From: Heliopora coerulea
Taxonomy: Eukaryota; Cnidaria; Anthozoa; Scleralcyonacea; Helioporidae
Length of the DNA: 64,000 nucleotides
Assembly: GCA_030142905.1 (NCBI GenBank)
Contig: JASJOG010000172.1
Span: 587,001 to 651,000 of the forward strand
Direction of reading: 5' to 3'
Shown here: in pieces, positions 4,790 through 48,520 of the stretch
Layout of the letters: each line of letters starts with the position of its first letter
Numbering within the stretch: position 1 is the first letter of the stretch
Notes under the pieces: model-generated
Seen by the model: the letters and a program-made list of their open reading frames with translations, nothing else
Databases searched by the model: none
What the model was told of the DNA's origin: nothing
Program-made: the position numbers and the translations under genes

Positions 4790-4801
4790 CACTAAAACTG
4801 C

Positions 4802-30946: not shown

Positions 30947-31417
30947 AACAACCTCCTAGCAAATGGCGTAGATCATTGGATAATATACCACCAGGCCATG
31001 GATTGTGTTGCGTGGATTCTTAGCGAGATCAACGGAAATATCGACCCATCTGATCCGGAAGAGTTTTGATATGAGCCTGCACGGGTACACTGATGAAACA
31101 AAAATCGTGAACGACACAAGCACAAACATTTTTTTGAACCTCCAAGTTGAAAGAAAAATACAACCAATAACGATGATGTCAAGGCTGACGGAACATTGCA
31201 ACCAATCGAAGCGAATGACTCTCCAAAGTCTCAACGAGGTGCCAGTTCGAACGGTGTTCTACCAATTGCCAACCTCAACAGCAGTCTCCCGGCTGAGGCA
31301 ACAGTTAAGGATACGGAATCGGACGTTAGTCTACAAGAGCATACAAAGAGAGACTTGGGGCCGTTTTCCACTAGAAGAATATCTTCGCGCGAAGCGACTT
31401 TTTCTTTTGTCTCGTGA
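30947..31417 (+). pseudogene. Decayed coding segment with four TGA stops
   Basis: A single frame of 156 codons is protein-like in composition (NGVDHWIIYHQAMDCVAWIL, then NGNIDPSDPEEF, then a basic NKNRERHKHKH segment) and is interrupted only by TGA at 31,067, 31,091, 31,094 and 31,148. All four fit CGA-to-TGA change at a CpG. I do not recognise the protein. The last 70 bp overlap a repeat that also appears inverted on the far side of the Polinton. Confidence 0.4.
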
Positions 31418-31462: not shown

Positions 31463-31468
31463 AAAAGT
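31463..31468 (+). repeat. Target site duplication AAAAGT (left)
   Basis: Identical to 48,475-48,480. Six bases is the known Polinton target duplication length. Confidence 0.95.
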
Positions 31469-31548
31469 AGTAGTCTGTAATGTCCGGATTCTAGCACATT
31501 TTATGAATTTTAATGAGCTTTCAAAAATTGTATCAACTTCCGGTAATT

Positions 31549-31566
31549 GGTGATGACGTCATCACC
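31549..31566. promoter_or_regulatory. 18-bp palindrome with CRE core in left TIR
   Basis: GGTGATGACGTCATCACC is a perfect palindrome centred on TGACGTCA, the binding site of CREB/ATF bZIP factors. Present in both arms (48,377-48,394). A role in host-driven transcription or in end recognition is inference. Confidence 0.5.
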
Positions 31567-31639
31567 TGTCAATCATTCTAAAATTTTTGTGTGACCACAC
31601 CCACTTCCCAAATCTGGTTCAAACCGGATTTTGGAAATC

Positions 31640-31780
31640 AGTAAATTTTCTCACATTCTCAAAATTGATCAATTTTCTCACATTCTCAAAATTGATAAAT
31701 TTTCTCGCATTCTCAAAATCAGTCAATTTTCTCACATTCTCGAAATTGATCAATTTTCTCACATTCTCAAAATCCATGTG
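31640..31780 (+). repeat. 27-bp tandem units in left TIR
   Basis: About five units of the pattern ATTTTCTCACATTCTCAAAA plus seven bases. As 27 is a multiple of three, the array stays open and would encode repeated nine-residue units, but there is no evidence of translation. Confidence 0.85.
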
Positions 31781-31784
31781 AAAA

Positions 31785-32353
31785 CTAGATTTTTGAAACA
31801 GAATATTTTGAGTTGCAATTTTCACATTTTAAAAATGTTAATTATTTTTCATGCATTATAATTGTATTACTAGATTTACATTGTTTGCAAAAAACATATT
31901 GTCTTATATATTTTCTTATAATTTTTTCAAAATGTTTTTGATAATATTTTCCTCTAATTATTAAACATTGATCATTATTAAATGAACCAGTCGTTGATAA
32001 TTCAGATAAAATAAAATCTTTAAAATGTTTATAAGGTCTATTTAATTTATTACAAATTTCTAAAAAATTAATAAACCCAATATAACACCACCAATAATTT
32101 TAAAAATTATTGGTGGTGTTATAACTAATTTTCTACACCATTCTAGTTTTAATTCACAAGTGTCTCTATTTTGGTAAAATTTTTTTAATAATTCATCATA
32201 TTCAACATCACAACCATCAAGAGTTTTACCAAACTTGTCATTCTGGTTATTTATGGTTTTTGTTTTTGGTTTTTTCTTTTTAGTTGATAAATTTAAACTT
32301 TCAAATTCACAACTAATGTCATTCATTTTATTCATTTTGTTTATTTCATTCAT
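31785..32353 (-). pseudogene. eIF2-beta-like translation initiation factor homologue
   Basis: The first frame (32,353 down to about 32,085) starts at ATG and holds a Lys-rich TKKKKPKTKT stretch, VEYDELLKKFY and KLVITPPIIFK, which fit the K-box and pre-core region of eIF2-beta. After a one-base frame change the next frame carries FINFLEICNKL, FILSELSTTGS, LIIRGKYYQKHFEKIIRKYI and YVFCKQCKSSNT, the core and first CxxC of the zinc ribbon. Beyond an in-frame TAA at 31,842-31,844 the same frame gives FLKCENC, the second CxxC, and stops at TAG 31,785-31,787, next to the TIR. eIF2-beta is part of the ternary complex that delivers initiator tRNA. It could be a captured host gene altering translation; whether any product is made is unknown. 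Confidence 0.8.
32081..32123. repeat. 20-bp perfect stem, 3-nt loop
   Basis: TATAACACCACCAATAATTT is repeated in inverse orientation around a TAA spacer, inside the eIF2-beta-like gene beside its frameshift. Confidence 0.9.
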
Positions 32354-32385
32354 GTTATTTATTTTTTAAAAATAATAAATAAAAA

Positions 32386-32771
32386 ATAGGAAATTGTGCT
32401 TCAAAAACAAAATCTAAAAATACTTCACATATTGAAAAATCTGAAAAGGAAAAAAATCATTCACAAAGTTAGATTTAAATCTTCATGGTTATCCACCAAT
32501 AAATTTTAGAAAAACTCGAAAAAGTGGTTTTAGAATTGGTGCTCATGTTGATATTGGGGTTAAAGATTTTGAAGCTGGAGTGACTTTTGGAAAAAATTAT
32601 ATACAGGAAGTTAATTTTTCAGAAAATAATAACCATTTAAAGTTATTAAAATCTTTAGAAAATGAAGATAGAAGTTCAAATACAGAAAAAGATAAAATAA
32701 TTGCTTCATTAATTGATTTAAATAAAAAAGATCAGAATGCAAAACAACAAAAAGATAGAGAATCGGATTAA
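32386..32771 (+). pseudogene. Broken gene for a possibly myristoylated small protein
   Basis: A frame beginning ATA (where ATG would be expected) reads GNCASKTKSKNTSHIEKSEK; with a Met in front this would fit an N-myristoylation signal. It fails at an A7 run near 32,450. The next frame continues with LNLHGYPPINFRKTRKSGF and GAHVDIGVKDFEAGVTFGK and a charged C-terminus to TAA at 32,771. I do not recognise a family. An ATAAATAAAA stretch precedes it, similar to the start motif of its neighbours. Joining the pieces is my inference. Confidence 0.45.
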
Positions 32772-32805
32772 AAAATAATTTTATAATTCAATATATATTA
32801 TAAAA

Positions 32806-33384
32806 TTAGTTTGTTGATGAACCACCAGGTTCACAGTCATGGGAATTATGTGAATTCTGTGATTTTGGATTTTCAACACGTTTTTTAATAACATGTTTTC
32901 CAACTGTAATTCCCCCAGATAATATTCCAAGATATGGTAGATATGGGGATAGTTTTTCAACCACAGATTTTACATCTCTTTATTATAATTTATCTTTTAC
33001 CAACTCTTTTTCCAATTCTTCACTGCTTTCAATTGCTTCTAATCCTCCTAATAAATCTGCAAATTTACTAATTAATAAATCTGTTAAAAATGCATTTGCT
33101 TTTTCCGCTTGTTTTACTTCATATTCAGCATAAATTTTTAATATAATTTTATCACTTGCTTTTTTCAAATTTTGCACTGATTGACTAATTTCACCATCTT
33201 CAGACAATCTTATCAATTCTTCACGTTTTTTCATTACTTCTTTTTTAACATCTTGCGTTTTACTTTCTTGATCATCCGACTGATCACGTTGATTACTTAC
33301 ACCTTCGGTGCTGAGACCTCTGGTCGATGCGGATGTATTTGATTCCATTTGCGGGACTTCTATATGATCACTTGTTTCACTCAT
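32806..33384 (-). CDS. Small Polinton protein with possible read-through tail
   Basis: The 133-codon ORF (33,384-32,983) has a Ser/Gln/Asp-rich first half and a helical, Lys/Glu-rich second half and starts at an ATAAAATAAATG motif. After two tandem TAA codons the same frame stays open for 57 codons to 32,806 and contains a hydrophobic segment (LSPYLPYLGILSGG). Either two base changes split a membrane protein, or the tail is unrelated. It overlaps the ATPase gene by 8 bp. No recognised family. Confidence 0.55.
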
Positions 33385-33991
33385 TTATTTTATAACTAAA
33401 TGGAAAAATTAAATTTATTTCCAAACATGAATATTTTTTTGTTTTCAAAGTTTCTAAAATTTTTTCCAATTCTTTGCGGTCTTCCAAACCTAAATATTCT
33501 TGAACTATTGTTGTCATATCTTTTTTATTTGGATTATAAAATGTGATTAATTTTGAAATATTTTCTCTAAATGGTTTTGCAATACTTGTAAATTGTTGTG
33601 TAATTACAACAACGGAAAGATTATAGTGTCTAGCGCTAAATCCTAATTTAACCAATTCACTTGTTCTATTTTTAACATTTTTTCCACTTGCACAATCATC
33701 AAGAATAATTAAGCTTTTACTTCCTTTTGAAAAATTTACTATAAATTTTAACCAATCCTCAACGTTGTCTAGGTCACAAGGAATAACAATAAAATCTTCG
33801 TCTTTATCATATTTCCAATTTTCATAAGTTTTATTCCATTCAAATGTTGGACAAATTAGAAAAATATAATCAAAATAATTTTTATATTTTGATTCTATAA
33901 AATCCAAAAGATATTTTGTTTTTCCACAAGCAGTCATTCCAACAATTATCATATTAAATGGTTTAATTTCATCGTTCACGTTCATGTTCAT
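33377..33991 (-). CDS. FtsK/HerA-type genome packaging ATPase
   Basis: 204 residues. Walker A is GMTACGKTK (18-26), Walker B SLIILDD (93-99), and the Q-rich sensor block VVVITQQ lies at 127-133. This order and length match the A32-like packaging ATPases found in Polintons, virophages and large DNA viruses, which pump DNA into capsids. It lies just downstream of the capsid gene, as usual in these elements. The frame is intact. Confidence 0.85.
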   Translation of the reverse strand: MNMNVNDEIKPFNMIIVGMTACGKTKYLLDFIESKYKNYFDYIFLICPTFEWNKTYENWKYDKDEDFIVIPCDLDNVEDWLKFIVNFSKGSKSLIILDDCASGKNVKNRTSELVKLGFSARHYNLSVVVITQQFTSIAKPFRENISKLITFYNPNKKDMTTIVQEYLGLEDRKELEKILETLKTKKYSCLEINLIFPFSYKINE

Positions 33992-34007
33992 TTTTTATTT
34001 TTGTTTT

Positions 34008-35245
34008 TTAAAATTGAATTGAAGACAAATCTTTATTTACAATATTTAGCAGTCCATCACTTATTACAAATATATAACACATTACATTTGCAGGAATAGC
34101 AGTTTTTTAATTTCTAGCAATAATCCAGACTGTGTGTTTACTAATTTTTTACCAGTTCCATAAACAAAGTTGTCATCTAATGTTCTTAAATCCACACATA
34201 ATGCAAATGAATCTTTGTAGAATTTTTCAATATCCATAACTGCATCACAGTCAAAATATCCGCAGCGAAATATTCTAAATGCTTCTTCAAAAAATCTTCT
34301 TTTAGGAAAACCTTGGGAATATATGCTATTTGGAACCCCTTCAACACTAATTTTGACATCTTTTATATTTGGATAAACAAATTGCTCACTATCTGTTACA
34401 GTTTTATTTCTAAATAACAGTACAACTACTTTCATACTTTTATGTGGAATATTTATAGTTTCATTATGTAAAGTTGCGTTTTTATCCCATTCTACTGTTT
34501 TCATCAAAGTTATATAATTATATGATAGTGATCTTCCAGTAGTGTAATTTGTTAAAACATCAACTGCTAAATCTTGATTTTCAATCGTTTCATATTCCAA
34601 TTCTAAATTTTCCAAAGTATATCTACCAACACTTTCACCACTTTGCACTATCATAATTTCACTTGCTTTTGGGAAAGTTAAAACATATTGAAAATTGTTA
34701 ATCATTCCATGAGGAGCATATAATCCATGATCTGATAGTATTTTTTCCAATATTAAGCACTGTTTTGTACCATAAATATCAAACATTAGTTTATCAGAAA
34801 CTTTTTCAGAATTACCACTTGTTGCTCCAGAGTCATCTTTTGAAATTAATTTTCCAAGATTTTCTCGAGCGATTCCATATTCAACCATATCTGCTCTTTC
34901 GGATTTAGTTTTCCAGAGATCTTTGTAAATTTCCAAAATAGATTCTCCACTATTATCATAAACAATTTCTCCAGCAAATTTAACAACCAATCTTTTCTTT
35001 AACAATTTTGATAAGTTATTTAAAAACCAAGACTTGGTGTTTGCATTTTTAAAATTAAATAACAATTTTAATGAATCAGGAACAAGACACAAATTAGGAT
35101 TTAATTTTGGAATATCTATATAAAGGTCTTCTTCTGGGTTTACTGAATTTGGATTTAAAGTTACAACATGTCTTGTTCTGATTCCTTTAATATCGCTCAT
35201 TTTTGATCTTTTATATCCTGGATATAATTTGTCTATTCTATTCAT
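34008..35245 (-). pseudogene. Probable major capsid protein, one frameshift near C-terminus
   Basis: The main frame gives 387 residues starting MNRIDKLYPGYKRS, with a beta-rich body and conserved-looking blocks SWFLNNLSKLLKKRLVVKF, IYGTKQCLILEKIL and PKASEIMIVQSGESVG. At a T6 run on the plus strand (34,103-34,108) the frame is lost. One base away the reading continues with CYIFVISDGL to a TAA at 34,008, clearly the true C-terminus. Position beside the ATPase, size and abundance of beta strands suggest the major capsid protein. A double jelly roll is not provable by eye. Confidence 0.5.
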
Positions 35246-35276
35246 TTATTATTATACAAAAAAAAATTTTTTTTTT

Positions 35277-36700
35277 TTAATCTTTATTAACCTTTTGGTA
35301 TTGCACCTTTCGTGCTGAGAACTTCGTTCGATCTTTATTCTTTCTGTATTCCTTGTATTCATTGTATAAAAAGTAAGTAATTGCAATAACTAATATCCAT
35401 AAATTTTTAGCTAGAAAAGCAATACTTTTTGCACCCCATGATAATATTTGAGAAATTAAATTTAAAACTGCTGAAATGACTGCTCCAAAATTTTTACCAA
35501 TATTTGCAATTGCTTTTGCTACTTTTCCAACTGCTCTTGTACCTAGTTTTAATGCATTTCTTGCACCCATAACTATTACTGTAATTATACCTGCTACAGA
35601 AATTGCTACTGCTGATAAACCTGCGAGATTTTCTTTTGCCCATTTTTTAAATCTTTCTAATCTTCCAAGGTCAGATTCTTCAGCATTTTCGTTTAAAATC
35701 TGTATTCCTTCTTCACTAATTGGTCTTTCATTATTTTCAAGTCTCATTTTATCTGCGTTTAATTTTGCAATTTTTTTAAAACCTTCATATATACTTTTTT
35801 GCGGTTCAGCTGTTTCTTCATCAGCTTTACTTTCCCAATATTCATATTCTCTATCAAATGATTTAATTTTTTCGTGTAAAACATTTTTTCTTTCATTTTC
35901 TGATAAATCAAAATAGTCTTTACCACCAACCGGAGAGACAGCTTCTTCAAAATTTAATAAACCTCTAAATTCTCTTAATTCATCTGGATCAAATAATGAT
36001 CTTCTTTGATCATTTTCATCTTCAACTAATTTAATCAAGTTATTTTCATCAATTATTCTATTAACTTCATTATCAATTTGTGAAATGGTGTTTTCAACTA
36101 TATTTTTTCTCTCAATCTCTTTCATTTCAAGATTTTCTCCAGATATTTTTCTATCTATATTAAAATCTGGTGTTTTTTTATATTCTTGTTTTGCTTTTTC
36201 AAAAATATTTCTGAATTCTTTAACATTTTTATTATTCTTTCTTACAAATAACTCTGGTTCATTATTGATAACATTACCAATTTTTACATCTTTGAAAAAA
36301 ATTGAAACATTTCCTTTTTCATCTTTAACAAACGTAGTTTTTTCTAACAATATCTTATTATTTTTTCCATTTCTCTTTTCAGGAGTGAAATCAAATATAT
36401 CTTTGAAAGTATTTTTTTTATCACTAGTTACTGATCTTTTAATTCCTCCCAATTTTTTTTGAGTCCTTTAAAAAAATTTTCAGACTCAGGATTTTCAACC
36501 CTAACTTCATTTTGACCAGTTTGGTCAGTTTGACTTGTTAGGGGTAACAATCTAGTGGTTTCTCCAGTGTCTAAATTGGTGTCAGCAAAATTTCCTCCAC
36601 TTGTTTCACCCTCCTCATGTTCTTCCTCTTCTTCTATATTTCTATGAACTTGTTCGCTTCGCTCATTTAATTCTATATCATCAAAACCGTTATTATCCAT
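35277..36700 (-). pseudogene. Large membrane-anchored Polinton protein, frame broken at an A8 run
   Basis: The upper frame (36,700-36,428) starts MDNNGFDDIELNERSEQ at an ATAAAATAAATG motif and is acidic. At an A8 run (36,453-36,460) reading moves to the frame below, which continues for 391 codons: a charged coiled region, then two strongly hydrophobic C-terminal segments (LSAVAISVAGIITVIVMGA and LWILVIAITYFLYNEY) and a basic tail. Total about 475 residues. Function unknown; probably a virion or membrane-active protein. A8/A9 slippage could be error, mutation or programmed frameshifting. Confidence 0.6.
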
Positions 36701-36705
36701 TTATT

Positions 36706-37755
36706 TTATATGCTTTTTCTTTTTTCAGTCACCACAGATAATTCTTGTTCATAAAATTTCCCAATGATTGGTTCACCTTCAAGGTCTTTCTTCAATGTTT
36801 GGATCACCTATAAATACTTTAGTAATTTTAAAAATTTCTTCTGTAAAATTAGCTTCATAACCTTTCACGAATATATTCTTATATTTAGAAATCCTAACAG
36901 CATCACCAATTTTAAATTTAGGAATGGAAAATTCACCTGGAGTTCCATACAACATAATCCATACTTGATACTTGTTAGAATCGTTTACATCAACAGGTTT
37001 CATTTGAGTTGTTTTATGTTTAGTATTATTATAATTTTTTACAAGCTTGTCTAAAATGTCAATCCAATTATAAGTTTCATTTTTATAAAAATATTTCCAC
37101 ATGGATGTTTTAGAGTTCTGTTAAATCTTTCAACCACAGCTGCTTTTTTAACAGATTTTGTAGAAAAGTATTTAACACCCGCGTCACCAGTTTCTTTCAA
37201 TAAACTTCTTACACCAACATTATAAAATTCTTTTCCTTCATCAAATTGAGCTACATTTGGATATTTATCAAATCTTTCTTTGAATTTTTTCAATAATTCA
37301 TTAACAGCTTTTGTCATGCTGTCAGTATTTTTTCTGTAAACAGGAATAGCAAACGCATATCTACTCAAAATTTCAATAGTTGTAAGAATCCAATAATATC
37401 CATCATTTTGTTTTTGGTATTTTCTCATATCAATTAAATCCATTTGTATTTGATCAGCTAAATCTTTAACAAATGTTTTTTGGAATTTATGTTTTTTAAC
37501 AATTGGTTTGTATCTTGTAAAAGTATTTTGTGTTTTTAACCAGTCTTGCACAATTTTTCTACTGACTTTTAACCCCTTTGGAAGTCTGTCTTTTGCTTTT
37601 TGATAAAGTCTTTCTGCAGATTGATAACCTGTTTCTGGGTTGTAATAAATGTCTCTTAACTCTTGTTCAATAACAAACATGTCGGCAAACAGCTTCGCTG
37701 CACCTTTGGTGTCGTCTTTGTCGCTAATGTTTTTCGTTTCATTCATTTCGTTCAT
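36706..37755 (-). pseudogene. Retrovirus-type integrase, two frameshifts
   Basis: The first frame (37,755-37,051) has the rve core with D106 (QMDLIDM), D172 (QFDEGKEF) and E209 (VVERFNR), a DD-36-E spacing. At an A4 run (37,108-37,111) the frame changes to 37,102-36,779, which carries MWKYFYKNETYNW, the HKTTQMKPVDV block and an SH3-like KFKIGDAVRISKY. Near 36,780 a second change leads to GEPIIGKFYEQEL and a stop at 36,706. This is the usual Polinton integrase architecture, without a chromodomain. It starts 21 bp from the divergent plus-strand gene. All catalytic residues are present but the frame is not. Confidence 0.85.
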
Positions 37756-37779
37756 TTATTTTTATTAAAATAAATAATG
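37753..37779. promoter_or_regulatory. Divergent start region of both Polinton gene sets
   Basis: Two ATG codons on opposite strands are separated by only 21 bp of A/T. The stretch is nearly palindromic and gives AATAAATG to the integrase side and TAAATAATG to the other. It must contain the start signals of both genes unless transcripts begin inside the opposite ORF. Confidence 0.55.
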
Positions 37780-39270
37780 AATTCAACTGAAGAAATGGGA
37801 AAAATGGAAAGAAAATATTATGGAAAAAATTATGTCTATGTTATGAAAAATATTAAAGAAGATGTTGAATTGGAGAAAAAATATTTTAAGAAAAAATATC
37901 CATACGCAGACATGTCAAAGTTTACTTTTGAAGCTGATTTTGATAAAAATGCTGTTTTTCAAGGTTATCATATTTGGTTTAAAAATAATTCGTTTTTGTC
38001 AACAGATATAAATTCAGACACGTTTAAAAATGATCCAAACATGACAAAATATTTAACAATAAATAAACCTGTTGAACACAGCGACAGCGAGCGTTCCGCC
38101 CGCTTTCCAAAAATATGGAAATCCAATGGAACAATTCAAGAAATTCCAAAATCCAACCCATTAACTGTTGAAGGACTTACAATTTATGATAAATATCCTA
38201 ATCATTTAATATTAAATTATCCAATTGAAAATTTTAGAATTTATGTTAATAATAGAGATTATTTTTTATCTAAATTACCATTATTGGATATAACCACTAA
38301 ATATTGGATAGGAAATTGGAATGATGACAAAAGTTATTATAGAGTTTGTTTTTCAGTTTATTGTGCTACTTATTGTTGTGGAATTTCAATTCAATATTTA
38401 ACTCCGTCCAAAGACGTTTTTCCTACTATAACATCAATTATGAGATTTCATTTGTATTTTACTGTGAGAAGACTTTTAAGAAGAATGGATGGTGGAGAAA
38501 AAATGTCAGACATTAGTAGAGAATTTTCTGCGAATAAATTTTATAGAAACAATGAACATATTAGAAGAAAAATGATTTATAGACAAAAAGGTGGGGTTGT
38601 TTATCAATTATATCCAGAATCATTCAAAAATGATTACAAACGATATATTCCAATAAAAAGTAATGGTTTTACAAAAATTGGAATTCAATATTTAAATCAA
38701 TCTATTGAAGCATTTATTTATTCTATATTAGGTAGTCAAGCTAGAACAAAACAATCCATTTTTAGCATCAGAGCTAGTGCATTAGAAACTCAAAAAGAAT
38801 TTAGAAAAATTTTTGAAGATAGTGTAATAAATTATGATACAGCAACCTGGATAAATAATATGAATACAGCCATAACCACAACAAATGTGGTTTTAAATAC
38901 AGCTATAAGTCCAACTTTATGGTTAATTCCAAGCAGTCTAATAATTTTAAAAAATCCTATTGAAGGATATAATAATAAATTAAAAGTTTCTGATGAAAAT
39001 ATGGTTTTTGGAATTAATGAAAATTTAAATTATTACGGGTCAAAAACCCGCGAAACAAAATTACAAGGAAATGAAGTAAAGAAAAATGAGTTCAAAAAAT
39101 ATAAGAAAAATGAATCCAAAAAAGATTTGAAAAATAATACATTAAAAGACATTTCAGACCTTTCATGTAAATCTTCAAAAATTATTCCTCCAAAAACATC
39201 AAGTGATAATTTAATTATTTTATCTTTATCAATAATTGGAGGAGTTTTAATTTCAAAATATATATTATAA
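37777..39270 (+). CDS. Conserved 497-aa Polinton protein, C-terminal anchor
   Basis: Intact ORF. The middle has SERSARFPKIWKSNG, encoded by a notably GC-rich patch, and FTKIGIQYLNQSIEAFIYSI with LGSQARTKQS. Near the C-terminus there is a basic K-rich linker, then a hydrophobic segment (LIILSLSIIGGVLISKYIL) ending in the stop. It opens the plus-strand set next to capsid-like genes, so a structural or DNA-packaging-related role is possible. I do not recognise a characterised domain. Confidence 0.65.
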   Translation: MNSTEEMGKMERKYYGKNYVYVMKNIKEDVELEKKYFKKKYPYADMSKFTFEADFDKNAVFQGYHIWFKNNSFLSTDINSDTFKNDPNMTKYLTINKPVEHSDSERSARFPKIWKSNGTIQEIPKSNPLTVEGLTIYDKYPNHLILNYPIENFRIYVNNRDYFLSKLPLLDITTKYWIGNWNDDKSYYRVCFSVYCATYCCGISIQYLTPSKDVFPTITSIMRFHLYFTVRRLLRRMDGGEKMSDISREFSANKFYRNNEHIRRKMIYRQKGGVVYQLYPESFKNDYKRYIPIKSNGFTKIGIQYLNQSIEAFIYSILGSQARTKQSIFSIRASALETQKEFRKIFEDSVINYDTATWINNMNTAITTTNVVLNTAISPTLWLIPSSLIILKNPIEGYNNKLKVSDENMVFGINENLNYYGSKTRETKLQGNEVKKNEFKKYKKNESKKDLKNNTLKDISDLSCKSSKIIPPKTSSDNLIILSLSIIGGVLISKYIL

Positions 39271-39275
39271 AATAA

Positions 39276-39977
39276 ATGACAAATCTTAAAATATTTATCA
39301 AACAGGATGAGACCGGTGAAAACTGCGAAAAAATAATTCAATTAGATGAACCACTTATATTAACTCATTGCAAAGGTATGTTTGTAAAATCAGTAAGTAT
39401 ATTTTGGAATTATAATAATTTATATCAAAATATTCATCATTATACCTATGATGGAAGAAAAATTGAATTCAAAGACGGGTATTATACCTTTAATATTTTA
39501 AAAACTGAATTTGAAAACGTTGGAAAAATAGCATTGGAACAAGTTGAATTTTCTGGAAAATGCAAAATAAAATCGAATAAAACATTAAATTTACAAACAC
39601 TTGGTCCAATCATAGGATTTCCAGAAAATAAAGTAATACAAGCAAATACATTAACAGAGAGTGACAGCGAGGTAAATATTAATAACAACTTGGAATATAT
39701 AAACATAAGCTGTAATATGATTGATAAAAGTAAAAATTTTGTAAATGGTAAAAGAAGTGACATTCTTATTCAAATTCCAATAACAACAGAACAAACACTA
39801 AAAGGAAGTGTCTCAAAAATTTATCCACCTGAAGACAAAGGACCGGGAGGAGGAGTAAAATTATCAAATGGAATTTATAATGAATTAATATTCAAAGTAG
39901 AAGGAAACAATGGTAGTGGTCCACAAGGTGGTTCATCATCAATAGGAAATGTTTTATTAGAAATTATTATAAAATAA
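39276..39977 (+). CDS. Candidate minor capsid (penton-like) protein
   Basis: 233 residues rich in beta strands without signal or membrane segments. Blocks FVKSVSIFWNYNN, LGPIIGFPENKVIQAN and ILIQIPITTE are of the kind seen in single jelly-roll vertex proteins, but I cannot confirm the fold by eye. Starts 5 bp after the preceding stop at TATAAAATAAATG and ends directly at the ATG of the fibre gene. Ends in a Gly-rich loop and LLEIIIK. Confidence 0.4.
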   Translation: MTNLKIFIKQDETGENCEKIIQLDEPLILTHCKGMFVKSVSIFWNYNNLYQNIHHYTYDGRKIEFKDGYYTFNILKTEFENVGKIALEQVEFSGKCKIKSNKTLNLQTLGPIIGFPENKVIQANTLTESDSEVNINNNLEYINISCNMIDKSKNFVNGKRSDILIQIPITTEQTLKGSVSKIYPPEDKGPGGGVKLSNGIYNELIFKVEGNNGSGPQGGSSSIGNVLLEIIIK

Positions 39978-41174
39978 ATGAGTTTATTTTACGGATATGA
40001 AAACAAACATGAATCTGGTTTAGCAGTGAAGCTGTCTACTACAGGAGATATGACAGGGGACATTAACATGGGATCACACCATATCATAACATCAGTTGAC
40101 CCAACAGAAAATGCACATTTAGCGAGGAAGAAATACATCGACGTCGAAGTGAGTAAAGTGAAAGGTTCAGCGGGAAACCCTTCGTCAGCAAATATGTATT
40201 TATTAAAAACAAGAGGAACAATGATGGGAAATATCATGGAGGATAATAAAATTACAACAAATGTGAATCCTATAAGTGATAAAGATTTAGCGAGGAAGAA
40301 ATACGTCGACGACCGTATTGATGATAATTTAAACATTCTCAAAAAAGATGTTAGTTTTTCAGTGCTGAAAGATAATTTTTCTTTGAAATTTCATAATTTA
40401 TATTTTGTTGAATATAATTCAATTTATGATTTGTTGTTTGAAAGAAACGGAGGAAAAGTAAAAGAACTAATTGATTATGGAATTGAAGGAAACAATTTTA
40501 AACAAACAACAAAAAGTCTTCAACCTTCCTTGTGTTTAGAAAGTGAAAAAGAAAATAATAAATATTTTTTAAAATTTAACGGCGGTAGAATGATTTCAAA
40601 TTCCAACATTAATCCAATATCAGGAAAAAAAGATATTGTAAATGTTTTTGTTGTTTATAAATTGAATTCTGTTCCTTCATCTGGACATAGTTGGTTAAGA
40701 GGAGGAATTTTTGGACATGATAATGGAGGATGGGATAAATTTATTTGTTTTGCAAATCCAACTACAAGAGAATTAGTTATTTCTGGAGATAGTGCTGATT
40801 TTTTTGGTATTGGTTCAAATAATATAAATCATAGATCACCAATTGCTGCTTTTAAATCAAAAGCAAATGCTGGAGTTTTGAATAAATGGATATGTTTAAG
40901 TATTCATTGGGATATGTATACAACACCAAATAATAATGAAAGTAGTGTTTATTGTAATGGAAAAAAGTTAACATCTTTTACATCCAAAACTGTTTTAGGA
41001 GATACAACTTTAACAATTGGTAATATAAAAAATAACACAAGTTCACCTTTTGATGGATCAATATCTTTCTTTTCAATTTTAAAACACGAAAAAATGACAG
41101 ATAAAGAAATTTTGTTTTATCATTATGTTCTTTGTAATTTATACAACGTTGATCATGATAATATAAATATATAA
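39978..41174 (+). CDS. Fibre-like protein: phage-tail-fibre repeats plus lectin-like domain
   Basis: Residues 21-55 and 78-111 are two copies of a repeat running TGDMTGDINMGSHHI ... ARKKYID and TMMGNIMEDNKI ... ARKKYVDDR, the pattern of trimeric phage tail-fibre shafts. Residues about 160-398 form a beta-rich domain with VFVVYKL, NKWICLSIHWD, VYCNGKKL and DGSISFFSIL, resembling a laminin G/concanavalin A-like fold. The layout suggests a trimeric host-attachment spike. It is intact, begins immediately after the preceding stop, and is followed by a damaged paralogue. Confidence 0.6.
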   Translation: MSLFYGYENKHESGLAVKLSTTGDMTGDINMGSHHIITSVDPTENAHLARKKYIDVEVSKVKGSAGNPSSANMYLLKTRGTMMGNIMEDNKITTNVNPISDKDLARKKYVDDRIDDNLNILKKDVSFSVLKDNFSLKFHNLYFVEYNSIYDLLFERNGGKVKELIDYGIEGNNFKQTTKSLQPSLCLESEKENNKYFLKFNGGRMISNSNINPISGKKDIVNVFVVYKLNSVPSSGHSWLRGGIFGHDNGGWDKFICFANPTTRELVISGDSADFFGIGSNNINHRSPIAAFKSKANAGVLNKWICLSIHWDMYTTPNNNESSVYCNGKKLTSFTSKTVLGDTTLTIGNIKNNTSSPFDGSISFFSILKHEKMTDKEILFYHYVLCNLYNVDHDNINI

Positions 41175-41179
41175 AATAA

Positions 41180-42223
41180 ATGAGTGTTATATTTAATGAT
41201 GATGATTTTAGCTCAAAAAGAAAAAATTTCATTTTAAATGAATTTGATAAAAAATTATCAAAAACAGGTGGAACAATGACTGGAGATTTGGATATGGGAA
41301 ATCATCATATTCTTCATGCAGCAAATTATGTCCCATCTTCTGATCATCACATTGTGACTAAAAAATACGTCGAAGACCGTGTGAAAAATTTTTCATTGGC
41401 AAATACGGTTGCAAATATTTATAATTTACAAATGGATGATGAAGGAATTTTTGATGTGAAAGATGATAATAATTATATAGAATATACTGGAAGCAATAAA
41501 AAGGTTGGAAAACTTTTGAATTTGTCAAGAAAAAAAGATTGGAATTTCAAACAAGATGATACAAACAAACAACCATTTTTCAAAAAATCCACAATTAATA
41601 ATAATTTTTATTGTGTTCAATACCACACTGGTCTTGGGTCAAACAGTAACAATTAACATTTAACTTGTGAAGAAAATATTTTAAGTTACCAATACTTGAA
41701 TTTTTACTTTGTATATGGTTTAAAATCATTAAATTCATCTAACAATGAGGTATCGTTGTTTAAAATCATAGATAATGAAACAGTAAGTCAACCAACTCCT
41801 TTTAATTTTGGTATTTCTTATCGTAATTCATTATTATATATCACAAATTCATCCACGTCTGTAATTTCAAATAGCAGATGGCAATTGAAAGCAAATGCAA
41901 CTCAAATAAACAAATTAATATGTCTTTCTGTTCATTGGGATCAAGGTAATCTCAGAGGTGGTGAAAAAGGAAAACTTTATGTGAATGGAAAAGAAATTGT
42001 TTCTTTCTATACAAATGCTAGAAAGTATCACACTCCAAATATGAAAATTTATCTTGGATCAAAAAATAAAGACTACGGAAAAATGGATGGAGAAATATTA
42101 TATCTATATGTTTCAACAAGAAAAATGAAATATTCAGAAATTGTTTTAAACCATTATCTTCTTTGTAAAAAATATGGTGTTGATTTTGACGAAGATGAAA
42201 TATTAAAATATATATCTAAATAA
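41180..42223 (+). pseudogene. Second fibre-like protein with one in-frame stop
   Basis: Same architecture as the upstream gene with one shaft repeat (TGGTMTGDLDMGNHHI ... TKKYVEDRV, residues 30-65) and the same lectin-like domain (FYFVYGL, NKLICLSVHWD, LYVNGKEI, DGEILYLYV). The frame is continuous for 347 codons except for TAA at 41,654-41,656. The overall similarity to the first copy is low, so the duplication is old and both were probably kept by selection before the stop arose. Confidence 0.6.
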
Positions 42224-42600
42224 ATTTTGAATAACGCGATTGCTCGAAGAGCTCAGAACCAAAGGTTCAAGCATGACAGCAAAGCTGTTTTGAATAACTT
42301 TGAATAAATTTTAAATAACCACAAATGTTATTTAAAATTTACTTGAACTGCTTTGCAGTCCTTTTAGGTTTTACTTGACTTTATTTAAAAATAACTTTAA
42401 GTAACTTTTAAATAACTTTGAATAAATTTTGAATAACGCGATCGCTCGAAGAGCTCAGAACCAAAGGTTCAAGCGTGACAGCAAAGCTGTTTTGAATAAC
42501 AACAAATGTTATTTAAAATTTACTTGAACTGCTTTGCAGTCCTTTTAGGTTTTACTTGACTTTATTTAAAAATAACTTTAAATAAATTTTAAATAAATTT
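42221..42600 (+). repeat. Two direct copies of a ~200-bp intergenic unit
   Basis: TAAATTTTGAATAACGCGAT begins at 42,221 and again at 42,423 (202 bp apart). Both carry GCTCGAAGAGCTCAGAACC, GACAGCAAAGCTGTTTTG and ACTGCTTTGCAGTCC, surrounded by many TAAATAA phrases. It is the longest non-coding block inside the element and may hold promoter or replication signals. Confidence 0.85.
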
Positions 42601-42622
42601 TAAATAAATTTTGAATAAATAA

Positions 42623-43072
42623 ATGAGTGAAGAAAATAAAGTAACGACAGTTGAAAAATCTGTTAAAGCAAAAGACCCAAGAAAAGTAGAATTGGGAAAA
42701 AGATTGGCGAAAATTTCAAGAGAAGCAAAAGAAAGAAAAGCAAGACAGCAGAGCGAAGAAAATTCTAAACAACAAAGCGAAGAAAATGAAGAAATAAATA
42801 ATTACACCTTTGGTGTTGAACCTTCCACTTTGGGGTATTTGATTGGAGGGGTAGGGGTTGTTGCTGCGCTAGGTGGATTATACTTTGCATACAAAAAAGA
42901 CAAAAGGGAAAGCAAACGATCGTCCTTCAGACTCAGCAGCGAAGCTGCAAGTGAACAAAGAGAAGAAAAAGACAGCGAAGCTTACAAGTTAGTAAGAAAG
43001 AATGAGAACAAAATTAATAAAAGTATACAATTGCAGGGTGGACCCTCAAGGTGCTCTATTGAAAACCTGTAA
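42623..43072 (+). CDS. Small basic protein with one membrane segment
   Basis: 149 residues. The N-terminal 50 are basic and helical (KDPRKVELGKRLAKISREAK), followed by a hydrophobic segment LIGGVGVVAALGGLYFAY at about 73-90 and a charged tail. The composition suggests a DNA- or membrane-associated virion component. The stop lies inside a strong hairpin. Starts at GAATAAATAAATG. Confidence 0.55.
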   Translation: MSEENKVTTVEKSVKAKDPRKVELGKRLAKISREAKERKARQQSEENSKQQSEENEEINNYTFGVEPSTLGYLIGGVGVVAALGGLYFAYKKDKRESKRSSFRLSSEAASEQREEKDSEAYKLVRKNENKINKSIQLQGGPSRCSIENL

Positions 43073-43088
43073 GGACCTTACAGGTTTT
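43062..43088. terminator. 13-bp hairpin across the stop codon, followed by AATAAA
   Basis: AAAACCTGTAAGG, one A, and its exact reverse complement, then TTTTTAATAAAA. The TAA stop is in the left arm. In some giant viruses and virophages hairpins mark mRNA 3' ends; the AATAAA is also a host poly(A) signal. Confidence 0.5.
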
Positions 43089-43123
43089 TAATAAAAAAAT
43101 TTTTTTTTTATGTATATAAATAA

Positions 43124-43357
43124 ATGACCGAAATGAATAGAAAAGAAGTTATGAATAAATTATATGATTCTACAATAGTTACATTGGGTGCTGTGGGAAT
43201 TGGAATGATAACAAGAAGAGTATTTAGTGATGGTTTGTCAACTCCGGCTAGTTTAGTACCTACTTTAAAACTTACAGCAGCTGTTGGAATATCATCGCTT
43301 GCAGTTAAATATGCACAAGATAAGAAATGGATTCCTTCGGATCCTTTCAAATCATAA
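43124..43357 (+). CDS. Small two-segment membrane protein
   Basis: 77 residues with two moderately hydrophobic stretches (TIVTLGAVGIGMITRR and LKLTAAVGISSLAVKYA) and a basic DKKWIPSDPFKS end. Begins at TATAAATAAATG. Unrecognised function; intact frame. Confidence 0.5.
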   Translation: MTEMNRKEVMNKLYDSTIVTLGAVGIGMITRRVFSDGLSTPASLVPTLKLTAAVGISSLAVKYAQDKKWIPSDPFKS

Positions 43358-43414
43358 AAAGTGAACGAAGTGAGCGAATTGAGCGAAGCGAAAATAGAAA
43401 AAATGTATAAATAA

Positions 43415-43838
43415 ATGGAAACAGTAGTTGGTGGATTATTTAATGCAGTTGCTTTTGCAGGTGCTGGATTTTTATTTTCAAAATTAAATCATTCTGGATA
43501 TGAAAAAGAGATAAAAAGACATAATGAAGCAATGGAAAAACTTAATAGGGATAAGGAAAAATGGTATGAGGAGCAAGTAAAAAGAAAACAAGAAATTGAA
43601 AAATTAAGACAACAATTATCTGATGCAAATGCTGATATAAATAAAACAAACATGTCTGAAAAATCTTGCTGAAATAAATAATCGTTATAAATATTTAAAA
43701 GAAGAAGCAAATGAAGAAGATGAAAAAGAACCAAAATTAGAAGATTATTATTAACCTTCAAATGAAATGAAAGAATATCAAAATGTTTTTTTTATAGTTG
43801 GTCTTTCAGGAGGTTATGTAGTTTATAAATTTATTTAA
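43415..43838 (+). pseudogene. Coiled-coil membrane protein, frameshift and stop
   Basis: Starts METVVGGLFNAVAFAGAGFLF (hydrophobic) followed by a coiled coil (NRDKEKWYEEQVKRKQEIEK). Near 43,665 the frame is lost. The next frame continues NNRYKYLKEEANEEDEKEP and LEDYY, meets TAA at 43,752, and goes on with PSNEMKEYQ and a closing hydrophobic VFFIVGLSGGYVVYKFI to 43,838. The coherent two-anchor layout supports one damaged gene. Confidence 0.55.
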
Positions 43839-43873
43839 AAATTTTTCTTTAAATAAATAAATTATATAAATAA

Positions 43874-44221
43874 ATGGAAAACCATTATCAACAAAAAACA
43901 TTTAAACAATTGTGGAATATTGCAAGAGAAAGAAAAATAAAATATTATAAAACTTTTAACAAAAATCAACTTGAAGAAATGCTTAGATTTGAAATTAGCA
44001 AACCAAATGAAAAGTATGAGAAATATTGTAGAGAAAAAATGAAAAATCCAATCCCAGTAATATTTATAAACAGTGAAACAGGTGAAATCTTAAATTTTAA
44101 AAGTCTTAGATCTGCTGCAAAAAATTTTAATATGAATCCGGAAAGTATAAAATATAGAATTAATAATAAAAAAGATTTGAAATTTAATGATCAATCATTT
44201 TTGGTTTTTTATGACTGTTGA
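43874..44221 (+). CDS. SAP/Rho-N-like plus NUMOD1-type DNA-binding protein
   Basis: 115 residues. Residues 1-36 (FKQLWNIARERKIKYYKTFNK with a following LEEML) resemble a Rho-N/SAP helix-extension-helix. Residues 58-100 (VIFINSETGEILNFKSLRSA then FNMNPESIKYRIN) match the NUMOD1 helix-turn-helix of homing endonucleases. No nuclease domain is attached. It lies just upstream of a polymerase that carries an HNH module, suggesting shared ancestry or cooperation. Starts at TATATAAATAAATG. Confidence 0.6.
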   Translation: MENHYQQKTFKQLWNIARERKIKYYKTFNKNQLEEMLRFEISKPNEKYEKYCREKMKNPIPVIFINSETGEILNFKSLRSAAKNFNMNPESIKYRINNKKDLKFNDQSFLVFYDC

Positions 44222-44295
44222 AAAAAATTTTTTTTTTTTTTTAAATTTTTTTTTTTTTAAAGGAAAATTATTATATAAATAAAAGATAATAAAAT

Positions 44296-47200
44296 ATGAA
44301 CCATGTTAACTCAAAAAACCATGCTTTGAATGTTGCAAAAAGATATGAAATTGATCTGAAAGAAGTAGGATTATCTTTATATGATCCTTTGAGTTTGTTG
44401 AAAAAAATAAAACCATTGATAATTAAAAAATTCAAAAAATATCCAAGCACAAAACAACAAATAACTCTTGTGTGTTTGATGTCAAAAACAAATCCAGCAA
44501 CAGGAGAACAAACCACAGATAATGCTCATTTTCATAGTTACTACGAAGAAATTTTTGATGGAAGTAATTTAGATGAAATATATGAAAAAATGACTCAAAA
44601 AGTTATTTTAAGTTTTGAAGAATTTTTAAAATATTCAAGTTTGTGGAAATTTCACAAAGGATTGAAAATAATTCTTAATATTAATGAAATTAAAAGATTA
44701 CTTGCATCATCTTATATTCCTACTCCAGAGTTTTTAAAAAATAAAAAAGCAATTATCAACCCAGAAAATGATGATCAAAAGTGTTTATTGTGGTGTGTTG
44801 TAATAAGTGAACTTTTGAAAACTAATCCTAACTTAAAAAATCCTGGAAGAATTACAAAAATTTTAAAAAAGAAAGCTGAAAGTTTTAATGTGAAAGATAT
44901 TAATTTTCCATGTGGATTTTCAGATATTGATAAATTTGAAAAAAATAATAACATTTCAATTAATTTATTTGGATACAACGAAGAAAAAAGGTTTGGTAAT
45001 AAAAATCATGAAATTTTCCCTTTGAGAGTAAGTAAATTTGGTTTGGATCGACAGGAGAATCCAGAATCACACGTAAATATATTGTTAATAACTAATGAAA
45101 ATGGAGACAAACATTATTGTTTAATTAAAAATATGAGTAGATTATTTTCAAACCAAGTCAATAAAAGTAAAGAAAAAATACTTGTTTGTAATTATTGCTT
45201 ACAAAATTTTAGAAGTGAACAAACTCTTAAAAATCATTTAGAATATTGCTCAAAATATGAATGTGGAAAAACTGTTTATCCAAACAAAGGTGAAAAATTA
45301 AAGTTTAAAAATTATAAAAGAATGCATGATATTCCATTTGTGATTTATGCAGATTTTGAATGCAATTTAAAACCGATTCGGTGCGAGGATAAAAATATTG
45401 GAGAACCGGTAGGTGACCATGCTCCGCGTACAAAACAATTTCAAAAACATGAACCATCTGGATATTGTTATTTGATAAAATGTTTTGATGATAATTTATT
45501 AAGACCAAAATTATTAAAATATACCAAAAAACCTGGTGAAGATATTTCTTTAAAATTTGTAGAAAGTTTAGAAAATAATATTAAAAAAATACATGAGCAA
45601 TTTAAATTTCCAAAAAAGATAATATTAAGTGAAAAAGATAAAGTAGATTTTAGATTAGCTAAAAATTGTTATGCTTGTGGAATCAAGTTTGGAAAACAAG
45701 AAAAACCAAAAACAGAAAAAAACCAGGTGGATGATGAATGTGATGAATTTGAAAAGATGGATAAATTATTTATGGACGATAAAATTAGTGCAGAAGAATT
45801 TAAAAAATATTTTGAAGACAGAGAAAAAGGAAAAGAAAATGAAAAAGAAAACGAAGAAAAAGAAAAAGAAAAAGAAACGAAAAGAACCAATTTCACAGAT
45901 AAAGTTAGAGATCATTGTCATTTTACTGGAAAATATAGAGGAGCTGCTTGTATTAGTTGTAATTCAAAAATGAAAAAACCAAAATTTATACCAGTTATAT
46001 TTCACAATCTTCAAAATTATGATAGTCATTTGTTTATTACAAATCTTCGTGCTTCTGAAGGTGAAATTAATTGTATACCCAACACTGAGGAGAAATATAT
46101 TTCATTTACAAAAGAAATTATTGTTGATAAGTTTGAATCTATAAAAATAATTACAGAAAAACAACTTCAAAGTAAATGTAAAGAAAATATTATTGAATGT
46201 GAAGAATTACCATCAACTTGTGAAAACCCAAAGTATAAAATCAAAGAAATTATTAATGTTAAAAAACAAATTAGATTTATTGACAGTTTTAAGTTTATGC
46301 AAAGTAGTTTATCAAATTTAGTTAATAATTTAGATAAAAATGAAATGAATATTTTGAAGAAATTTTATAAAAATGAAGAAAAAAGACAATTATTAACTAG
46401 AAAAGGTGTTTTTCCATATGATTGGTTTGATAATATTGAAAAATTAAAAGAAGAAAAACTACCTGATATTGGAGAATTTTATTCTAAATTAAATGATGAA
46501 AATATAAGTGAGGAAGATTATAAACATGCGAAAAATGTTTGGAATAAATTTAATATTAAAAATATGAGAGAATATCATGATTTATATTTGAAAACTGATG
46601 TAATTTTATTAGCTGATGTTTTTGAAAATTTTAGAAAAGTTTGTAAAGAAAATTATAAATTAGATCCTGCTTGGTATTATACTTCACCTGGATTAGCATG
46701 GGATGCAATGTTAAAAATTACAAAAGTTGAATTGGAATTATTAAATGATCCACAAATGTATCTTATGGTAGAAAATGGAATAAGATGTGGAATTTCAACA
46801 ATCACAAAAAGATATGCAAAAGCTAATAATAAATATATGGAAAACAAATATAATCCTGAAGAAGATAATGTTTATCTTTCTTATTTGGATGCAAATAATT
46901 TATATGGTTGGGCAATGAGCAAAAAACTTCCTGTGAGTCATTTCAAATGGATGGTAAACAAAGAATTGGAAAATTGGAAAAAATATAGTTGTATATTAGA
47001 AGTTGATTTGGAATATCCAGAAGATTTACATGATTTACACAATGAATATCAGTTAGCACCAGAAAGATTAAAGGTTGGTAATGTTGAAAAACTGAAAGCA
47101 GCAAAGCTGATTCCAAATTTGAATAATAAAGAAAAATATGTTTTGCATTGTGAAAACTTGAAGTTATATGAAAAATTAGGATTAAAAATTAAACGAATTC

Positions 47201-48144
47201 ATAAAGGTATTAAATTTCATGAAGAAGATTTCATGAAAAAATATATTGATTTAAATACAAAACTGAGAACAAGCGCAAAAAATGATTTTGAAAAAGACTT
47301 TTTCAAATTGATGAATAATTCTGTATTTGGTAAAACAATGGAAAATGTTAGAAACAGAGTTGATATTCAATTGGTTAACAGAAAAGAAAAAGCATTAAAA
47401 TTATTTTCAAAAACAAATTTCAATAAAAGAACAATATTTTCTGAAAATCTAATTGCGGTGCATATGTATAAGAGTAAAATTAAACTAGATAAACCAATAT
47501 ATTTAGGAATGAGTATATTGGATTTATCAAAGACTTTAATGTATGATTTTCATTATAATTATATTAAACAAAAATATGGTGAAAATGCGAAATTGTTATT
47601 TACAGATACTGATAGTTTAATGTATGAAATTAAAACTGAAGATTTTTATAAAGATATTTCTTTAGATGTTGAAAAAATGTTTGATACAAGTAATTACCCA
47701 AAAGATCATAAAAGTGGGATAAAAACTGGATTAAATAAAAAAGTAATTGGAATGATGAAAGATGAATGTGGTGGTAAACAAATAGAAGAATTTGTAGGAT
47801 TGAGAGCAAAATTATATTCTTATAAAATGTATGAAGATGAGAAAGACAAAGCACCAAAGGTGTCAAAAAGATGTAAAGGTGTTAAGAAAAATGTTATTGA
47901 GAAAGATTTAACATTTCAAAATTATAAAGATTGTTTATTTACTGAAGAAGAACAAATAAGAAAAATGAATTTAATAAGACACAGAAACCATGAATTATAC
48001 ACTGAAAGTATTGAAAAAATTGCATTATCAACAAAAGATGATAAAAGAATAATACTTGGAAATAAAATTGAAACACTTGCATATGGTCATTACATGAATG
48101 AAATGATAGGCACTTATGAAAATATGTTTGTTTTTAAACCATAA
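44296..48144 (+). CDS. Protein-primed family B DNA polymerase with C2H2 and HNH modules
   Basis: 1,282 residues, intact. A C2H2-type finger lies at about 298-320 (CNYCLQNFRSEQTLKNHLEYC without its last residues). Exonuclease motifs: Exo I YADFEC (D353/E355), Exo II FHNLQNYDSHL, Exo III YLKTDVILLAD (D768). Between Exo I and II an HNH/endonuclease VII-type motif DHCHFTGKYRGAACISC starts at 539. Polymerase motifs: DANNLYGWAM (D865), KLMNNSVFGK (from K1004), TDTDSLMYEI (D1104/D1106). This is the element's replicase, expected to use a terminal protein as primer. It ends 14 bp before the right TIR. Short protein-rich Lys/Glu insert at about 500-530. Confidence 0.9.
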   Translation: MNHVNSKNHALNVAKRYEIDLKEVGLSLYDPLSLLKKIKPLIIKKFKKYPSTKQQITLVCLMSKTNPATGEQTTDNAHFHSYYEEIFDGSNLDEIYEKMTQKVILSFEEFLKYSSLWKFHKGLKIILNINEIKRLLASSYIPTPEFLKNKKAIINPENDDQKCLLWCVVISELLKTNPNLKNPGRITKILKKKAESFNVKDINFPCGFSDIDKFEKNNNISINLFGYNEEKRFGNKNHEIFPLRVSKFGLDRQENPESHVNILLITNENGDKHYCLIKNMSRLFSNQVNKSKEKILVCNYCLQNFRSEQTLKNHLEYCSKYECGKTVYPNKGEKLKFKNYKRMHDIPFVIYADFECNLKPIRCEDKNIGEPVGDHAPRTKQFQKHEPSGYCYLIKCFDDNLLRPKLLKYTKKPGEDISLKFVESLENNIKKIHEQFKFPKKIILSEKDKVDFRLAKNCYACGIKFGKQEKPKTEKNQVDDECDEFEKMDKLFMDDKISAEEFKKYFEDREKGKENEKENEEKEKEKETKRTNFTDKVRDHCHFTGKYRGAACISCNSKMKKPKFIPVIFHNLQNYDSHLFITNLRASEGEINCIPNTEEKYISFTKEIIVDKFESIKIITEKQLQSKCKENIIECEELPSTCENPKYKIKEIINVKKQIRFIDSFKFMQSSLSNLVNNLDKNEMNILKKFYKNEEKRQLLTRKGVFPYDWFDNIEKLKEEKLPDIGEFYSKLNDENISEEDYKHAKNVWNKFNIKNMREYHDLYLKTDVILLADVFENFRKVCKENYKLDPAWYYTSPGLAWDAMLKITKVELELLNDPQMYLMVENGIRCGISTITKRYAKANNKYMENKYNPEEDNVYLSYLDANNLYGWAMSKKLPVSHFKWMVNKELENWKKYSCILEVDLEYPEDLHDLHNEYQLAPERLKVGNVEKLKAAKLIPNLNNKEKYVLHCENLKLYEKLGLKIKRIHKGIKFHEEDFMKKYIDLNTKLRTSAKNDFEKDFFKLMNNSVFGKTMENVRNRVDIQLVNRKEKALKLFSKTNFNKRTIFSENLIAVHMYKSKIKLDKPIYLGMSILDLSKTLMYDFHYNYIKQKYGENAKLLFTDTDSLMYEIKTEDFYKDISLDVEKMFDTSNYPKDHKSGIKTGLNKKVIGMMKDECGGKQIEEFVGLRAKLYSYKMYEDEKDKAPKVSKRCKGVKKNVIEKDLTFQNYKDCLFTEEEQIRKMNLIRHRNHELYTESIEKIALSTKDDKRIILGNKIETLAYGHYMNEMIGTYENMFVFKP

Positions 48145-48158
48145 AATAATTCCAGCAA

Positions 48159-48474
48159 TTTTCACATGGATTTTGAGAATGTGAGAAAATTGATCAATTT
48201 CGAGAATGTGAGAAAATTGACTGATTTTGAGAATGCGAGAAAATTTATCAATTTTGAGAATGTGAGAAAATTAATCAATTTTGAGAATGTGAGAAAATTT
48301 ACTGATTTCCAAAATCCGGTTTGAACCAGATTTGGGAAGTGGGTGTGGTCACACAAAAATTTTAGAATGATTGACAGGTGATGACGTCATCACCAATTAC
48401 CGGAAGTTGATACAATTTTTGAAAGCTCATTAAAATTCATAAAATGTGCTAGAATCCGGACATTACAGACTACT
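48159..48474 (-). repeat. Polinton right terminal inverted repeat
   Basis: Mirror of 31,469-31,784, with the same 27-bp units and 18-bp palindrome (48,377-48,394). The polymerase stop lies 15 bp upstream. Confidence 0.95.
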
Positions 48475-48480
48475 AAAAGT
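48475..48480 (+). repeat. Target site duplication AAAAGT (right)
   Basis: Matches 31,463-31,468 exactly. Confidence 0.95.
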
Positions 48481-48520
48481 TGAATCGCGCTACAAAATTC
48501 GCCTAGTGGAAAACGGGCTT
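48475..48520 (-). repeat. Inverted relative of the left-flank sequence
   Basis: The reverse complement (CCCGTTTTCCACTAGGCGAA, then a GCGCG stretch and AACTTTT) is similar to 31,350-31,395 on the other side of the element. It suggests the Polinton landed in or beside a small palindromic element. Confidence 0.5.

Follow-up and report, generated by a model that had tools for sequence, protein, structure and literature searches.

Some copies of a Polinton family in Heliopora coerulea carry a short eIF2-beta gene

Results

A Polinton with a broken eIF2-beta gene beside its left end

The window is the whole stretch of DNA analysed here, 64,000 nucleotides of Heliopora coerulea (contig JASJOG010000172.1, positions 587,001 to 651,000 of the forward strand). 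It contains an element of 17 kb with inverted ends, which spans 31,469-48,474 and whose features are given below in window coordinates.

31463..31468, left target-site duplication AAAAGT, read from the sequence; the same six bases stand at 48475-48480
31469..31784, left terminal inverted repeat (TIR), with 27-bp tandem units inside
31785..32353, minus strand, gene for an eIF2-beta homologue, disrupted by a single frame break and a single TAA (31842-31844)
31788..31841, minus strand, second Cys pair of the zinc ribbon, past the TAA
31845..32087, minus strand, core domain with the zinc ribbon's first Cys pair, matching PF01873 at E=1.2e-21
32060..32353, minus strand, N-half with one Lys box and the YDELL helix, whose yeast counterpart binds eIF2-gamma
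32383..32756, plus strand, MGNC gene, here broken and transcribed divergently from the adjacent eIF2-beta gene (tblastn pieces 32383-32454 and 32475-32756)
32851..33384, minus strand, homologue of a neighbour gene of ~165 aa; the open frame here ends at 32983
33377..33994, minus strand, A32-type packaging ATPase (PF04665, E=1.9e-18)
34082..35245, minus strand, capsid protein candidate, labelled from size and gene order
37051..37755, minus strand, rve integrase (PF00665, 31.2 bits against a cut-off of 32.6, E=2.8e-7; transposase PHROGs)
44293..48144, plus strand, DNA polymerase B of protein-primed type, by the motifs YADFECNL, DANNLYGWAM and DTDSL
48159..48474, right terminal inverted repeat
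48475..48480, right target-site duplication AAAAGT

The terminal inverted repeats are 316 nt long and identical between the two ends at 315 of 316 positions; a repeat search reported them as a 317-nt pair of 100% identity. Two criteria of Polintons/Mavericks, long inverted ends with a 6-bp target duplication and an A32/FtsK-type packaging ATPase, are thus both present in the window element. The integrase scored 1.4 bits below the Pfam cut-off. No polymerase profile in Pfam or the other profile searches matched the ORF at 44293-48144, in which we take the three motifs to be those of family-B polymerases. The capsid candidate matched no family in the same kinds of search, and its label is presumed from size and gene order. 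Our designation of the element as a probable Polinton rests on its ends, target duplication, ATPase and integrase together with motifs and gene order.

Several weaker features were seen in the same element. The polymerase ORF includes a piece resembling endonuclease VII, slightly below the cut-off at E=6.9e-5, and its first half weakly matches a zinc finger. A small ORF at 43874-44221 gave weak Rho_N and NUMOD1 matches, both below cut-off. Fibre-like genes at 39978-42223 encode TGGTMTGD-type repeats and have a weak laminin-G match. The element is flanked by 42-bp arms, 79% complementary, at 31361-31402 and 48475-48516; given these arms, a small inverted-repeat element may have been its insertion site.

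The eIF2-beta gene begins with an ATG at 32,353 and its final stop at 31,785-31,787 abuts the inner edge of the left TIR (31,784). Its N-half is open from 32,353 to 32,060 and encodes STKKKKPKTK (the Lys box), YDELLKKFY and KLVITPPIIFK; alone, this half matched no Pfam family. The C-half lies in another frame (32,087-31,785) and is interrupted by the TAA at 31,842-31,844. The 81 C-half residues before this stop matched PF01873 at 77.2 bits (E=1.2e-21), against a cut-off of 27 and well above what chance would give. The frame break falls between the halves, beside a short palindromic stretch. The original prediction had read an eIF2-beta homologue here from a Lys-rich box followed by KLVITPPIIFK, FINFLEICNKL, FILSELSTTGS, IIRKYI, YVFCKQC and FLKCENC. 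All of these peptides were found on the minus strand in that order, the single frame break and single TAA were as described, and the PF01873 match of the C-half supports the identification.

The divergent neighbour starts with MGNCxSK, which we take to resemble a myristoylation signal, and is conserved, occurring also at 2044-2415 of L002. Its window piece had no Pfam match. Since the MGNC gene is broken in this copy and the next gene shortened, this end of the window element is decaying. Judged by its sequence, the segment at 31,785-32,353 demonstrably derives from an accessory Polinton gene that encoded a trimmed eIF2-beta and has since decayed.

Polinton-associated copies across the genome

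The genome assembly (430 Mb, 769 contigs) was scanned with PF01873, yielding 29 matches from 34 candidates, all of them scored. One GFP-like exon most resembles fluorescent proteins such as DsRed, which come from Anthozoa, in line with an anthozoan host. Twenty-five matches represented 23 copies beside Polinton genes, the association being established by tblastn for 22 copies and by ORF reading for L012. One match was an exon of the host's own intron-bearing eIF2-beta (L025), with two Lys runs upstream, and the other three were eIF5-like exons on contig C67. This C67 trio (L018, L020 and L026, near 3000-3500) consists of copies of one eIF5 N-domain exon, and a reverse-transcriptase ORF lies near L020 and L026.

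The domain frame was open almost end to end in 12 of the 23 element copies; the remaining 11, the window copy among them, were broken or partial. One open copy, L005, is a close relative of the window copy elsewhere in the genome. Two of the 12 (L009 and L010) are arms of one palindrome. On contig C162 these inverted arms (L009 at 2525-6435, L010 at 4899-886) span ~3.8 kb and are 99.97% identical, each holding a TIR, the eIF2-beta gene and part of PolB; the palindrome looks as if it arose from a Polinton by deletion, or else reflects an assembly error. Intact copies in other Polintons, for which the original prediction had suggested looking, were thus found: beyond the window there are 22 copies beside Polinton genes, 12 of them domain-open. 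These copies also rule out a lone host pseudogene. Some copies of this Polinton family therefore carry a short eIF2-beta gene.

The copies fall into three sequence groups with different positions in the element, and every group includes an open copy. Group A comprises 14 window-type copies between the TIR and the MGNC gene, L001, which is ~50% identical and has the same position, and L009/L010, which sit at the PolB end. Group B (L012, L015, L016 and L019) adjoins a gene like that at window 42,623-43,072. In group C, L017 adjoins PolB, whereas L021 lies past the MGNC gene and shares its strand. Genes similar to the fibre-like genes of the window also adjoin group-B copies. In the window, the gap where eIF2-beta stands in group-B elements (42223-42623) holds direct repeats with TTACTTGAACTGCTTTGCAGTCCTTTTAGG; a remnant of a group-B eIF2-beta there was rejected, as none was seen on reading the sequence.

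In four elements lacking the gene (L030, L037, L039 and L043), the TIR match starts no more than ~31 bases from the MGNC start. The eIF2-beta gene is thus an insert in an accessory slot. A PF01873 match lay within 1.5 kb of the ATPase in 7 of 150 scored ATPase copies, from lists read by eye (C166, C27:320217, C82, C405, C761 and C112 twice). A further ATPase, C27:324542, is 2.3 kb away from a PF01873 match yet is part of the neighbouring piece. The genome holds at least 150 ATPase copies (150 of 1122 candidates scored) and at least 107 copies of the capsid candidate (107 of 1358 scored). Twenty ATPase ends hand-picked from the 150, excluding those seven, contained no eIF2-beta, a 0 of 20 that is not a frequency. 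The eIF2-beta gene is accessory, and most listed elements do well without it.

A single large duplication behind the A copies was rejected. The outer flanks of the 15 copies at the A position (the 14 window-type copies and L001) are mostly unrelated, sharing only one dispersed repeat (L004 and L007) and pieces of 57-81 bp (L003, L005 and L006). These flanks were cut at hand-set places, and that of L005 holds another element.

The encoded protein keeps the parts of eIF2-beta that bind eIF2-gamma in yeast and lacks most Lys boxes

In open copies the frame runs for about 150-207 codons without introns. Five open copies matched PF01873 at 91-105 bits (cut-off 27), and comparison with cellular eIF2-beta gave a probability of 99.9% for group A and 98.8% for group B. 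PF01873 also covers eIF5-like exons in this genome, as noted above for C67. An eIF5 identity was rejected for the element proteins by comparison with PDB chains, in which one open member per group was closer to eIF2-beta than to eIF5. For L005 (group A) the match to human eIF2-beta had E=1.2e-31 and the best match to eIF5 1.1e-5; the values against eIF2-beta and eIF5 were 7.7e-17 and 2.7e-8 for L012 (group B), and 2.2e-19 and 4e-7 for L017 (group C).

The open-copy layout is one Lys box (none in group B), a helix of the eIF2-gamma-binding type, an alpha-beta core and a four-Cys zinc ribbon; helix, core and ribbon are common to cellular eIF2-beta (human, yeast SUI3). In yeast, the alpha1 helix and zinc ribbon hold eIF2-beta on eIF2-gamma (PMC11230868, PMC5175340). 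Key residues were tabulated for 11 open copies, leaving out the broken copies and the second C162 arm. The gamma-contacting Tyr (yeast Y131 position) and the S264 position were kept in all 11. All four zinc cysteines were present in ten, L011 having Tyr for one of them. The yeast T238 position was Q, N or E in the copies examined, and the ELGTSGS-type loop was lost in group B. In P0006, a relative from metagenomic data, the S264 position is occupied by Ala.

The element proteins differ from their cellular counterparts in length, introns and ends. The human chain has 333 residues, well beyond the length of the element frames, and the host gene has introns whereas the element copies have none. 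Cellular eIF2-beta has three Lys boxes and a C-terminal tail. By contrast, groups A and C have a single lysine run and group B none, so the several-box N-terminal region of cellular eIF2-beta is missing; the tail is mostly missing too, with a trace in L009. Of the predicted order of K-box, core and zinc ribbon, the Lys box is therefore real, but the elements have one lysine run at most. Since the three Lys boxes of eukaryotic eIF2-beta are not all there, the element protein is filed as an eIF2-beta homologue and not as a full eukaryotic eIF2-beta. In yeast, deleting all three Lys boxes is lethal, and E189K abolishes the GDI action of eIF5 and changes the response to reduced eIF2B (PMC5175340). 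The second result tells nothing about the element proteins because this residue is already Lys in animals.

Selection on group A and composition of the genes

A codon model fitted to six open A cores (137 codons) gave an omega of 0.166. Fixing omega at 1, with one parameter fewer, was worse by 2dlnL 21.5 (10.8 log units). With seven A cores (L001 and L009 in, L011 out) omega was 0.108 and the corresponding 2dlnL 82.8. Group A was thus shown to be under purifying selection while the elements multiplied. Simple pairwise counts gave dN/dS of 0.34-1.40, near or above 0.5 in many pairs; they were set aside post hoc on account of extreme AT content and of N-ends that were untrimmed and partly out of frame. 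The eIF2-beta genes of elements have a GC content of 17-25%, other element genes 24-30% and two exons of host eIF2-beta 34 and 41%. A low GC like that of other element genes, and unlike that of host exons, fits long residence in elements.

Origin and relatives

In the core, group A is 40-49% identical to host eIF2-beta, group B 32% and group C 36%. In a tree with an archaeal sequence, group B paired with the latter at 65% and the three groups were not united in a clade separate from the cellular sequences. Without the archaeal sequence, cellular and element sequences were split at 95%. Cellular sampling consisted of host, human, yeast and four diatom-like rows, with no giant virus, and the tree left out broken copies, the second C162 arm and P0002. 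An AU run, from which the archaeal sequence and B_P0006 were removed as well, along with three diatom-like rows that were nearly identical, did not reject a joint origin of A, B and C (p = 0.51). A scenario in which group A alone was recently captured from this animal lineage was rejected, albeit with few cellular sequences, since a grouping of A with host and human to the exclusion of B and C had an AU p of 0.029. The low core identity to the host and a joint origin that is not rejected are consistent with an old eIF2-beta lineage held by elements. The element eIF2-beta accordingly looks, from sequence comparison, like such an old lineage and not a recent host capture. The original prediction of a captured host translation factor holds in that Polintons carry an eIF2-beta homologue, but with a core identity of 32-49% it was not recently captured from this host.

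Relatives outside this genome were few. The protein database contained three A-type proteins (74-89% identical) and one B-type protein, on contigs of 709-5,776 bases. In a profile search with 1045 matches, those with a name among the 120 listed were either translation factors or unnamed eukaryotic proteins. No relative turned up in viral contigs, whether they were scanned with eIF2-beta queries (A, B and cellular) or with the capsid candidate.

Discussion

Polintons are often regarded as minimal selfish elements. The window element shares inverted ends, the 6-bp target duplication and an ATPase, and probably the integrase and the polymerase motifs, with Polintons/Mavericks and presumably with animal adintoviruses. 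It differs from these elements as published in having an eIF2-beta gene. No report of this gene in Polintons, Mavericks or adintoviruses was found in the literature searched, including the surveys PMC11071296 and PMC11071308, most subscription journals lying outside this scope. This agrees with the original prediction, which knew of no such gene described in Polintons. In PMC6505742 the relevant words occur in unrelated senses, and no such gene in Polintons is mentioned.

Translation factors in giant viruses, to which the same prediction had pointed, are borne out. PMC6401483 and PMC11946776 place eIF2-beta in mimiviruses, klosneuviruses, marseilleviruses and Loki's Castle viruses, with several origins. 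There the gene belongs to large genomes, often with other translation genes, whereas here a trimmed protein is encoded by a 17-kb integrating element. An eIF2-beta gene is thus known from giant viruses and, as far as the literature searched can tell, appears to be new in Polintons. The eIF2-alpha mimics of poxviruses and ranaviruses are also viral copies of an eIF2 subunit, but of another one (PMC11946776). Such mimics imitate a kinase substrate, which eIF2-beta does not contain.

We consider the prospects about even that the trimmed protein joins host eIF2-gamma and alters initiation. If the element is expressed, its protein would take the place of host eIF2-beta on eIF2-gamma. Since eIF5 and eIF2B-epsilon dock on the Lys boxes, most of which this protein lacks, eIF2 would come under altered control. 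Element mRNAs might then still be initiated when the host limits initiation through eIF2-alpha phosphorylation, or start-site choice might be relaxed. In favour of a subunit role are the retained Y131 and S264 positions, the omega of 0.17 and the eIF2-beta identity of all three groups. Against it, the T238 position, which touches the nucleotide in yeast, is not kept and group B is much altered. A subunit with one box or none may also not work, given that full Lys-box deletion is lethal in yeast (PMC5175340). The Ala of P0006 at the S264 position, the cysteine lost in L011 and the majority of listed elements that manage without the gene weigh against it too. More tentatively, and with somewhat less than even confidence, we propose that an eIF2-beta long kept by the elements and moved between slots could replace the host subunit, giving an element-specific initiation factor that would escape control by eIF2-alpha phosphorylation. 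No description of such an eIF2 subunit swap was found in the literature searched.

The same retained residues would serve a protein that binds without working. As a decoy, it would occupy eIF2-gamma or initiator-tRNA complexes in an unusable form and lower host cap-dependent translation (shut-off), with element mRNAs escaping otherwise. The reduction of the Lys boxes and tail fits such a role, as does the essential nature of the boxes in yeast (PMC5175340). However, the core and S264, needed for activity beyond binding, are kept and selection spans the whole core, and we regard a decoy as unlikely. It is more doubtful still that the protein has become a zinc-ribbon nucleic-acid-binding protein of eIF2-beta descent, serving the element's own replication, transcription or packaging instead of acting in host translation. 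Groups B and C are strongly diverged (32-36% identity to host), and eIF2-beta is reported to bind mRNA through its Lys repeats and C2-C2 motif (PMC11946776), yet even these two groups retain the gamma-binding Tyr and S264. That a host eIF2-beta cDNA was picked up by chance and copied without function is very improbable: 11 of 23 copies are broken or partial, the gene is absent from most listed elements and pairwise dN/dS, composition-biased and partly out of frame, is near or above 0.5 in many pairs, but the codon-model omega of 0.17 largely refutes a passenger, three diverged groups occupy different slots with an open copy each, and key residues are kept despite low identity to the host gene.

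The reading that we prefer, in which the element protein enters eIF2, suggests that small elements may interfere with host protein synthesis. That a gene for a translation factor is conserved suggests that Polintons compete with an animal host over protein synthesis, a contest outside the giant viruses. Should the protein enter eIF2, it would be a natural short eIF2-beta and could reveal which parts are needed for control by eIF5 and eIF2B. The eIF2-beta gene would also mark elements that are, or formerly were, expressed as viruses.
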